DNA of 64,000 bases, taken from Siniperca chuatsi (taxonomy: Eukaryota > Chordata > Actinopteri > Centrarchiformes > Sinipercidae). Below are positions 45,191 to 49,281 of the stretch, piece by piece; position 1 is the first letter of the stretch, and every line of letters begins with the position of its first letter. Made by a program: the position numbers and the translations under genes. The notes under the pieces were generated by a model. That model was given only the letters and a program-made list of their open reading frames with translations. It made no database searches and was not told the DNA's origin. Location of the stretch: the NCBI RefSeq assembly GCF_020085105.1, contig NC_058056.1, forward strand, positions 19,764,429 through 19,828,428, in the 5' to 3' direction.

Positions 45191-48100
45191 ATGGAAGAAG
45201 AGGAGCAGCTGCGGTCTTTCATGTTCCTCATGACTTACATGCTGCTGAAGCGCAGGAGAGACATAAACAACGCAAACATTCAGAGGCGCAATGAGATCCA
45301 AAGACGCATCAGACATCGGCAGTACTTCTTCCAGCGACAGAGAAGGATGCTTATGGTCAGTCCTGTCTCTGTCCCATATATATAAATATATATATATGTG
45401 TGTATATATATATATATGTATATATATATATATATATATATATGTATATATATATATGTATGTATGTATATGTATGTATATATATATGTATATATATATA
45501 TGTATGTATGTATATGTATGTATATATATATATGTATATATATATATATGTATGTATATATATGTATATATATATATATATATATGTATATATATATATA
45601 TATGTATGTATATATATGTATGTATATATATATATATATATATATATATATATATATATATATATATATATATATATATATATATATGTATGTATATGTA
45701 TGTGTATATATATATATATGTATGTATATGTATGTGTATATATATATATATATATGTATATATATATATATATATATATATATATATATATATATATATA
45801 TATATATATATATATATATATGTGTGTATATATATATATATATATATATATATATATATATATATATATATATATATATATATATATATATGTGTGTGGG
45901 TGTATATATTTATGTATGAAGACTTTGGAGTGACCTAGTCAAAGTCCTGACCTGAATCCTATTGAGATGCTGTGGCATGACCTTAAAAAGGCAGTTCATG
46001 CTCGAAAACCCTCCAATGTGGCTGAATTACAACAATTCTGCAAAGATGAGTGGGCCAAAACTCCTCCACAACGCTGTAAAAGACTCATTGCAAGTTATCG
46101 CAAACGCTTGATTGCAGTTGTTGCTGCTAAGGGTGGCCCAACCAGTTATTAGGTTTAGGGGGCAATCACTTTTTCACACAGGACCATGTAGGTTTGTTTT
46201 CTTTGACTAAGATTTAAATTTGTTTGATGATCTGAAACATTTAAGTGTGACAAACATGCATAAAAATAAGAAATCAGGAACACTTTTGCACACCACTGTA
46301 TATGTGTATATGTATATACAGTGGTGTGAAAAAGCTACATAGATCTTACCAAAAAGGCACAGAATAAATAAAAGACGTACAACTATATGTTTTGACATAT
46401 TTTCTTACACTGTAAGCAATAATAGAGATACAGTTTTTAAGTCCACAAACCAGAGCAGGGGAAAACATTTATTGTTTATTGTTTTGTTAAAATTGATCAG
46501 GTAGAATTTGTCCTGATATTTCAAGCTGTAGTCAGAAGAAAACAAACAAAACATTTTCCCATTTAAGAGAAAAAGCATGGCAAATTCTGAAAATTACAAA
46601 AGCAGATAGATCCTTCCAAAAACTTCTACGGCACTGACAGTTTGAAAATAAATGAGTGATAGAGTCTTAGAATCAATGGTTTTAACAACTTTTGTAATCT
46701 GAATTACTTTAAAGGAAATCTTTATTCTACTATCGATCTTCTTCTCCCCAGATGATGATAGCAGGAGGTATCCGCTCCAACGTCCACATCCGCACACGCC
46801 CCTGGACCACCACTCCAAGCACTGATTGGTGGGAGCGGGTGGTGATGACAGAATTTCAGCCGTCTGATTGGCTGGATAAGTTCCGCATGAGCCGGGAGAC
46901 GTTCTTCTACCTGTGTGACAAGCTGAGGCCGCGTCTCGCTCGCCAGGACACCAGCTTCCGTCTGGCGCTGCCAGTGGAGAAACGTGTAGCAGTGGCTCTG
47001 TGGCGTCTGGCGTCGAACATCGAATACCGCACCATCAGCACCCTGTTTGGTGTGGGGAAGTCCACCGTGTGCAGGTGTGTTAGAGACATGTGTCACGCCA
47101 TCGTGGCGCTCCTCAGCTCCGTCTACCTGCGGTCCCCCAGTGAGCAGGACCTGGAGGATTCAGCTCAGCTCTTCCTGTCCCATTGGGGCTTCCCTCACTG
47201 TGTTGCTGCCATTGCAACACTCCACACAGCTATCATCACCCCATCAAACAACGCGTCTGACTATGCCAACCCCTCTGGCTGGCTCTCAGTGCTGTCTCAG
47301 GTAGAGAGGGCACCCATGTATGCTGCTGCAAATACATGCTCACTAGTTGTGCTATGTCAGATTTTCACTTCTTGCCTCTTTCTGTCTCTTTGGTGTTTCA
47401 GGTGGCTGTTAGTGGCCGGGGGCAGTTCTGGGATGTATGTGCCAGTTTCCCAGGTGGGACAGACCCAGCTGACATCTTACAGAACTCATCGCTGTGGGCC
47501 ACGGCTGCAGAGGGTGGACTGTCGCCGGCCCCGCCGCCTGTCTTCATGGGAAAACCTCTCGGGTAAAGTTAAAGCCAACAGCATGACGGTTGAGCCAGGA
47601 TCCAATTCAGTACTAAGTATTATTATACATTATACAGTTTTCATTTAAGTAATTTAAGGATACTGCATGCACATTTCCACCTTGAGGAAAGAAGTAAATG
47701 GTCTTTTCCCTTTGTTTATTAGGTTTTCATACAGCCTTTGTCACTTATCTGTCCACCTTGAAACAACATCTAGCTTTAGGCTTAGATAAACTCCATCCAT
47801 GAAACCTCCACAGGTTTACTATGGACAAATTAAAATCTTACAGGTTATTAAGATCAATACTCATCTCTAGTCCAAAAACTGTCTTGTTCCACACACTAAT
47901 TAACTCCAATTGAGAGCTACTGGCCAAGATGTAATTAATAGAAGTAAACCCAAAAACATACATTTTAACTGCCTACTTTTATATCTGCATATTGTTTTTT
48001 TCTTAATATGGCTCTCACGCTTAGCCTGATGGGTTGGTACCCATTAGACCAAGTTAAGTCCAGGATGGTGATGTACTTAACTGTATGGAAACAGTGTCTT

Positions 48101-49281
48101 GAAAGCCAGTATAATTTTGCTCAATGTCTTATTGTTTGTAGTATAATTTATTATTGTTATATAAATTGTTGAATAAAATTTTAAAGCCTGTATGTAGTAT
48201 ATGGTCTTGTAGTGTAAAAAAGTTGCACACCTATCCAGCCATATCCCAGCACTGAGACTCTGCAGTGGAATATCTTTCTTAGATTCTTTTTGTTTTTTTC
48301 AACAAAGAGAACAGGCTGTGAAAAGCTGATGTGAACTGAAAATTAAGTCAATCAAAAGGACTTCACATGCCTGAGTATGTAAATAAATGGAAGCAATAGG
48401 ACAATACACCTGACTGTGCTTTATAATAAAAATGCAAAAAAAACAGACATAACATTTGGACTTCATTCAAATACTTTACATTCTTATATGTCCAAAATGT
48501 TGTTGTATTACACCATGTATCTCATACATCTAGTCTTTTTTGCACTATACATTTAAGGCCATCAACACACTGCAGTTTTAAGCCTGATTATAAACTTATT
48601 TTGGCCATTAAATTCACAGATTTGTGCAAAATGGATCAGCACATATTTTGTATTGTACAGAACAATACAAAATATGTGCTGAAAACATGTTTGAATATTT
48701 ACACTGGGCATCTATAGTATACAAATCTGATCGAACTCCTCTTGTTTGAGCTGGATAAGGGCAGAAATGTTGCAATGCTGAGTCATTTTCTGATGCCAAG
48801 TCTTCAAGTGTGTGCTATAATTGACTGAAAACAATCTGCTGTGTATAGGTATGTGCTTCTGGGGGAGGCCTGCTACCCTCTGCAGAGCTGGCTAATGAAG
48901 GCCTATCCTGAGGAAAAGGGCAGGAGGGCAAGCCACACAGCACTGACAGAGTCGCAGCGGCTCTTTAATCGGCGGCTCACCAGAGCGCTGCATGTGCCTG
49001 AGGAGGCGCTGCTGAGGCTGAGGGCACGCTGGCAGTGTCTGAGCAAGAGGAACGACTGTGGACTGGACGTGGTGCCCACCATGATTCTAGCTTGCTGCAT
49101 TCTGCACAACATGTGCGAGTCCCACGGTGACGCCTTCAAGGCAGAGTGGCAGGTGGAGGTGGCCGAGGCAGAGAGCCCTCAGCCCAGCCACAAGCAGCTC
49201 CTCTCAACCAGTATCGACCAAAATCATGCTGAGGAGGTGCGACACCTCTTCTGTGACTATTTTGACCAGCAGAATAATTGA
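45191..49281 (+). CDS. Harbinger transposase-derived protein, HARBI1-like, catalytic Asp residues lost
   Basis: Four exons: 45191-45355, 46752-47300, 47402-47562 and 48849-49281. All are GT-AG in phase; 435 aa. Exon 1 is Arg-rich and charged (about residues 20-53). Exon 2 has [16 protein letters not shown] and a helix-turn-helix with [15 protein letters not shown], standard for PIF/Harbinger transposases. Later come [29 protein letters not shown] and [12 protein letters not shown], all matching the DDE_Tnp_4/HARBI1 fold. At the first Asp position (usual DGxH) the protein has ATLH (Ala210). At the usual VDH it has VSG (Ser242), and at the usual HD it has DP (259-260). A Glu at the third site remains. 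A nuclease role is therefore unlikely. Splicing, an unbroken frame and degenerate active site point to a domesticated gene. No terminal inverted repeats were found around it. Confidence 0.85.
45379..45905. repeat. Long (TA)n/(GTAT)n microsatellite in intron 1
   Basis: About 530 bp of TA dinucleotides with interspersed GTATGT words, 24 bp after the donor of exon 1 of the Harbinger-derived gene. Several long Tyr/Ile open frames across it are products of the repeat and not proteins. Confidence 0.97.
45918..46303 (+). mobile_element. Tc1-like transposon 3' remnant
   Basis: About 46 residues after a degraded PDLNPIE-type start (45945-45966: CCTGACCTGAATCCTATTGA) read as the C-terminus of Tc1 transposase: [47 protein letters not shown]. 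It is followed by GGGGGCAATCACTTTTTCACAC and an end in CACACCACTGTA. The 5' half is missing and is replaced by the TA microsatellite. A CAGTGGTGTGAAAAA word in opposite orientation at 46319-46333 is a second terminus. Confidence 0.88.
48636..48682. repeat. Perfect 21-bp inverted repeat in intron 3
   Basis: 48636-48656 is the exact reverse complement of 48662-48682, with a 5-base loop. It lies in intron 3 of the Harbinger-derived gene, about 165 bp before exon 4. Confidence 0.9.

Follow-up and report, generated by a model that had tools for sequence, protein, structure and literature searches.

A Harbinger-derived gene with an altered catalytic site in Siniperca chuatsi, probably a domesticated host gene

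Results

Gene model and Harbinger origin

The stretch of DNA analysed here, called the window, comprises 64,000 nucleotides of Siniperca chuatsi contig NC_058056.1 (G000:C15:19764429-19828428), taken from an assembly of 718.8 Mb in 65 contigs. It holds a gene, hereafter the window gene, whose spliced open reading frame runs to 1308 nucleotides (435 codons and a stop codon) in four exons, and each of its three introns begins with GT and ends with AG (Table 1). The protein of this frame, the window protein, matches the Pfam family DDE_Tnp_4 at residues 211-379 (expectation value E=1.5e-18; 67.4 bits against a cut-off of 24.8), a match far beyond chance that covers parts of exons 2 to 4 together with junctions 2 and 3. 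Both the Harbinger origin and the four-exon frame had been proposed in a first-pass annotation of this DNA, and both are borne out; a chance frame was considered and is rejected on the strength of the same match. Plant_tran is also found, at 22 bits and right at its cut-off, and the FRMS, YLC and ND motifs are common to the window protein and six related sequences of the same genome (labelled L012, L013, L014, L017, L018 and L021). A sequence search of PDB with the window protein gave nothing at E up to 1, and scans of the viral_contigs, phages and genome_contigs collections found no relative of it (in genome_contigs, nine pattern matches and no relative), although these collections include no other fish genome and tell little about a fish gene.

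Splicing at junctions 2 and 3 is supported because the DDE_Tnp_4 homology runs over both. The support for junction 1 is weaker, in that the score of exon 1 with the first part of exon 2 against the N-terminus of a spliced relative on contig C4 was reached by 24 of 2000 shuffles. The start codon lies in the context AAAATGG, with an upstream in-frame stop at 45152, and a 380-residue form lacking exon 1 is conceivable because exon 2 opens with its own ATG. GC content by codon position is 0.571/0.456/0.695.

Table 1. The window gene and its surroundings, in positions of the window.
Feature	Positions	Strand	Remarks
Glycosyltransferase 92 exon	11443-11820		Glyco_transf_92, E=1e-19 (Pfam)
Myo-inositol-phosphate synthase, pieces	33208-33609, 37736-38071		Pfam
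TPGS1	43059-43760		E=2.4e-60 (Pfam)
Exon 1	45191-45355	+	55 codons, Arg-rich N-terminus; similarity to N-terminus of C4 relative
Intron 1	45356-46751	+	Contains AT-rich microsatellite and Tc1-type transposase piece
Microsatellite, AT-rich	45376-45891		516 bases, in intron 1
Tc1-type transposase piece	45934-46149		In intron 1 beside microsatellite; DDE_3, E=4.4e-7 (Pfam)
Exon 2	46752-47300	+	Helix-turn-helix half (sub-threshold HTH_Tnp_4); first catalytic-domain strand with Ala210
Intron 2	47301-47401	+	101 nucleotides; absent from C7 relative, L013, L014
Exon 3	47402-47562	+	Core with Ser242 and Asp259-Pro260
Intron 3	47563-48848	+	Absent from C7 relative, L013, L014
Exon 4	48849-49281	+	Gly297-Glu298 (family GD), Glu343, C-terminal part, stop codon
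G-alpha exon	63009-63239		Pfam

Catalytic site

The catalytic columns were read from a 17-row alignment of the window protein and 16 further sequences from its own genome, chosen from 49 regions or matches fetched beyond the gene's own exons; those left unaligned include members, judged by eye, of other DDE (Asp-Asp-Glu) groups (e.g. L041, L048, L049, L052, L059-L062, L064). At position 210 the window protein has Ala where, among the 14 other rows with a letter, ten have Asp, two have Gly and two are apparently out of frame. Position 260 is Pro; its column is that of the Asp in an "HDAR" motif, and of the 12 rows with a letter 6 have Asp. Position 298 is Glu, in the column of the "GDxxYP" Asp, which 12 of 14 rows have. 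The alignment is in register at position 260, since the window protein and each of the four further rows measured (C10, C24, C7 and L014) show the same spacing of 49 residues between the first Asp position and this one. Glu343, the third acid, is retained (Glu in 7 of 14 rows), while position 242 is Ser in a column with a conserved Asp, present in 10 of the 13 rows that have a letter; we know of no work that calls this Asp catalytic.

The order of elements in the fold, as we take it to be, favours column 298 over column 260 as the second catalytic Asp, which makes column 298 the likelier of the two, and a carboxylate would then remain there as Glu298. By this alignment the window protein has lost the first Asp and carries another residue at the second, whether the second is column 260 or column 298. 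The first-pass annotation had named Ala210, Ser242 and Asp259-Pro260 as replacements of catalytic Asp residues. Its residues are correct, Ala210 does stand at the first catalytic Asp and the loss of catalytic Asp residues is upheld, with columns 210, 260 and 298 all changed; Ser242, however, does not count as a catalytic loss, the Asp of that column not usually being called catalytic. As to the Asp259-Pro260 pair, it is Pro260 that stands at the "HDAR" Asp, Asp259 being aligned with its His, and the change at Glu298 had gone unmentioned.

An enzyme that is still active through shifted acids (Asp259 or Glu298, with Glu343) might be read from the same columns, given that Glu298 and Glu343 are acidic and that Asp259 lies one residue off the family Asp. 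Such an enzyme would nevertheless have to work with Ala in place of its first Asp, in an 11-residue strand that has no acid at all, and in the rice Ping transposase the change of one DDE-domain residue (D295A) is reported, in the available part of the source, to lower excision in yeast about 150-fold (PMC2836001). Retained activity is on these grounds highly improbable.

In a separate observation, Lys replaces the catalytic Glu in three broken or partial copies (L012, L013 and L021), a change perhaps inherited from one inactive source.

Copy number and signs of mobility

A genome search with the window protein, in which 97 of 147 candidates were scored, gave 82 matches, and the copy-number statements here and below refer to those scored candidates. 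The gene's own four exons aside, the best long match lies on C7, with 39% identity over residues 66-393 (37.9% in a separate alignment); pieces closer than this are short (52-57% over 37-72 residues, the 57% being over 37), and multiple similar copies of the window gene were not found. Terminal inverted repeats were sought without gaps in about 2.2 kb per side (43001-45190 against 49282-51500), and the best score of 16 compares with a mean of 13.8 and a maximum of 17 in 30 shuffles, a search that gapped or very old repeats could escape. An earlier inverted-repeat search was dominated by the microsatellite of intron 1, inside which all 25 pairs shown fall. None of 49 genome matches to the Myb/SANT family PF13837 lies on contig C15, where a Myb exon that has diverged too far would go unseen by the family model. 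A recent transposon is rejected on the combination of a closest long match, among the scored candidates, at 38-39%, terminal repeats no better than chance, no Myb/SANT match on the contig and an altered acidic site.

Selection versus decay

The genome is rich in Harbinger-like sequence (at least 153 matches to PF13359), and five related copies (L012, L013, L014, L017 and L018) hold three to seven stops each inside the match, so that the window gene might be taken for one more decaying copy, or for a young pseudogene whose frame is open by luck. What speaks against this is a stop-free frame of 435 codons with GT-AG introns, for which the scored candidates include no close copy and the search for terminal repeats gave nothing better than chance. 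When neutral decay of the window frame was simulated by substitutions alone, with 300 runs at each level, about 5% of copies were stop-free at 90% identity and none of 300 at each of 80%, 70%, 60%, 50% and 40%. GC content at third codon positions (GC3) points the same way, being 0.695 in the window gene and 0.46-0.53 in all eight broken or partial copies; total GC of introns and flanks is 0.34-0.45. High GC3 is not a clean mark of a host gene, and it favours such a gene without settling the matter. Decay with an open frame is thus improbable, and selection on the window frame appears to be supported, if indirectly.

The introns may bear on age. The matches of the C7 relative, L013 and L014 cross junctions 2 and 3 without a long gap, and because all three lack both introns, introns 2 and 3 would have been gained after the split from these sequences. 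This suggests, and would fit, an old age for the gene.

Which segments are kept

The window protein was compared, segment by segment, with those broken or partial copies that are in frame for the segment, in rows picked by eye. Its identity to the copies is 0.50 (211/426) in the helix-turn-helix half, 0.30 (71/233) in the core, 0.40 (108/267) in the GD..E stretch and 0.49 (152/310) in the C-terminal part, where the copies agree among themselves at 0.52, 0.64, 0.51 and 0.55, respectively. A different selection of rows, in which L012 and L018 were dropped from the core only, gave the same direction, with 0.44 against 0.46 among copies in the helix-turn-helix half, 0.31 against 0.63 in the core, 0.39 against 0.52 in the GD..E stretch and 0.49 against 0.68 in the C-terminal part. 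On these identities, the catalytic core has drifted and the N-terminal half has not, which agrees with the first-pass claim that the helix-turn-helix half is the better kept of the two.

Related genes in the same genome

Three relatives elsewhere in the genome also carry altered sites. The closest long relative (L039; C7:24679666-24680607) has 38% identity and a stop-free frame of 352 residues, matched without an intron; its catalytic Glu is changed to Gln, and Asp is kept at columns 210, 260 and 298. A stop-free Myb/SANT frame lies about 2 kb downstream on the opposite strand (region C7:24679666-24682868), and the search for terminal repeats around this relative gave a score of 13, no better than chance (shuffle maximum 17). 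The C4 relative (L040; C4:32320711-32325234) is spliced, with the first Asp changed to Gly, the "HDAR" Asp to Ser and Glu to Asp, and its long exon has a GC3 of 0.846.

On C21, a frame on the minus strand (L051; 4892056-4892919) has, by alignment, all three catalytic positions altered to Gly, Arg and Asp: Gly replaces the first Asp, AR replaces GD and Asp replaces Glu. It stands as a single copy at its level; its four other matches, among them exon 4 of the window gene, have 25-34% identity. About 2.2 kb from it is a convergent Myb/SANT frame (region C21:4889573-4892919), which makes the two frames a candidate co-domesticated pair. The C7, C21 and C4 relatives together suggest that Harbinger parts may have been reused repeatedly in this genome.

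Relation to HARBI1

HARBI1 is likewise a domesticated Harbinger nuclease, and it keeps an acidic catalytic site. The human HARBI1 sequence used for comparison was entered by hand, and the identities and bit scores given here hold for the sequence as entered. Against it the window protein has 26% identity over 313 residues (82.8 bits), as a diverged fish orthologue of the same superfamily might. The window protein nonetheless scores higher with the C7 relative (246 bits, 38%) and with all eight broken or partial copies (87-241 bits, 28-46% identity), and HARBI1 is itself nearest to a Harbinger row on C10 (36%, 193 bits), much closer than it is to the window protein. An orthologue is rejected on the contrast of 82.8 with 246 bits: by these scores the window gene is unlikely to be HARBI1, and a diverged HARBI1 orthologue that has lost the acids HARBI1 retains is the least credible of the explanations considered here, with next to no chance of being right. 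The distinctness from HARBI1 claimed at first pass is supported by the same scores. HARBI1 is reported to be conserved between teleosts and mammals (PMC9710019).

Neighbouring genes

Ten frames of the window were submitted to Pfam in a scan of the neighbours, and three gave no match; those identified are listed in Table 1. The glycosyltransferase 92-like gene appears to be duplicated, with two frame pairs that are similar by eye (1118-1717/9646-10323 and 2229-2498/11443-11820), of which only 1118-1717 (no match) and 11443-11820 were among the frames scanned. No transfer RNA genes were found in the window, and Rfam gave no match there.

Discussion

The altered catalytic columns, the isolated position of the gene among the scored candidates and the open, spliced frame argue with good confidence for a domesticated host gene that no longer acts as a nuclease. 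It would be a single-copy, old host gene descended from a PIF/Harbinger transposon's nuclease, having lost catalytic acids of the DDE site and retained both its C-terminal part and its N-terminal half with the helix-turn-helix. The separate, more derived domestication put forward at first pass, with binding kept and the nuclease lost, accordingly stands as to the origin, the loss of Asp residues, the difference from HARBI1 and the retention of the helix-turn-helix half; for selection on the frame the support is indirect.

Several observations weigh against the reading of a domesticated, nuclease-dead adaptor gene. The helix-turn-helix family HTH_Tnp_4 is matched at residues 128-175 with only 21.8 bits, below the Pfam cut-off of 27, and Glu298 leaves an acid at one candidate catalytic position. 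The decay simulation cannot tell selection on a host gene from selection during life as a mobile transposase, and GC3 is 0.55 in the tpgs1 stretch, 0.585 in exon 3 of the window gene itself and 0.49 in the stop-free C7 relative. Between the window gene and the C7 relative, the proportions of nonsynonymous and synonymous differences are 0.436 (pN) and 0.803 (pS), with synonymous divergence (dS) saturated and the ratio dN/dS uninformative, and a tree of 12 rows (which left out C4_L056, L029, C21_L063, C4_L050 and L018 of the 17 aligned rows) leaves the window gene unplaced. The rows behind the segment identities were chosen by eye, and the gap that separates the helix-turn-helix half from the core is smaller in the C7 relative (0.44/0.37) and missing in the C4 relative (0.37/0.38), so that it is no general mark of such genes. 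The supporting evidence, finally, is the sequence of one genome.

The preservation of the N-terminal half fits an adaptor role. The gene would be expressed as spliced, and its protein would be a non-cutting adaptor that binds DNA or a partner; its N-terminal half may dock onto a Myb/SANT-type protein encoded elsewhere, no PF13837 match having been found on contig C15, and so help to position a chromatin or transcription complex, the role that ALP1 and HDP1 have in Arabidopsis. If the gene is domesticated and nuclease-dead, such a role has slightly better than an even chance, and an old, domesticated, nuclease-dead gene serving as a DNA- or partner-binding adaptor, the kind of partner being left open, is the explanation that we favour with moderate confidence. 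It is also possible that the gene is a selected host gene whose fold is put to other use (e.g. RNA binding or a structural role) and which is no adaptor for DNA or a Myb partner. The HTH_Tnp_4 score under its cut-off and the contig without a Myb/SANT match would suit such a use, yet the helix-turn-helix half is the best-kept part relative to the transposon-type copies, and in known cases it is the N-terminal end that binds the Myb partner, according to the available part of the source (PMC7282668). Another use of the fold is therefore judged rather unlikely, though it deserves more weight than decay does.

A broader and quite speculative proposal is that the window, C4, C7 and C21 genes are separately derived Harbinger nucleases with altered sites, and that together they correspond in a vertebrate to the ALP/HDP chromatin adaptors of plants, where nucleases that do not cut are paired with Myb proteins. 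Two of the four (C7 and C21) have an open Myb/SANT frame at a distance of about 2 kb, and the window gene would be the member that has no linked partner and uses one encoded elsewhere.

The closest transposon-type sequences (L012, L013, L014, L017, L018 and L021) differ from the window gene by stops or frame breaks; L013, L014 and L017 retain the first Asp, unlike the window gene, and L013 and L014 are without introns 2 and 3. A literature search of open-licence papers, seen mostly as the openings of abstracts, returned no description of such a catalysis-dead fish Harbinger gene, and the window gene is probably a new gene of a kind already known, namely nuclease-dead and derived from a Harbinger nuclease.

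Other fish genes of Harbinger descent have been described. The genes nxhl and zebrafish zgc:113227 contain DDE_Tnp_4, are related to HARBI1 and have a reported angiogenesis phenotype, as given in the available part of the source (PMC8558974). Compared by description only, nxhl has two exons where the window gene has four, and zgc:113227 is 54.7% similar to nxhl (PMC8558974, same part). ADF-1L, a PIF/Harbinger-derived MADF-domain protein reported to recruit KAT2B, is probably from fish, since miiuy croaker is named in a reference-list entry (PMC11893794, as far as available). It resembles the protein proposed here in being a Harbinger-derived regulator, but it comes from the DNA-binding side of the transposon, with its MADF domain, and the window gene from the nuclease side.

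The nearest parallels are ALP1 and HDP1 of Arabidopsis, described in the available parts of two reports as host genes that arose from the Harbinger nuclease and lost its DDE residues (PMC4671723, PMC7282668). The window gene, too, is an open frame in which DDE residues are lost. It differs in lineage and in the residues concerned (ALP1 has DGA for DDE), and the partner and complex are known for ALP1 and HDP1, whereas the window gene is described from its sequence. If the adaptor reading is true, a vertebrate Harbinger gene with a clearly lost catalytic site would set binding apart from cutting as a role, and the route from nuclease to adaptor known from plants would have been taken in fish as well.

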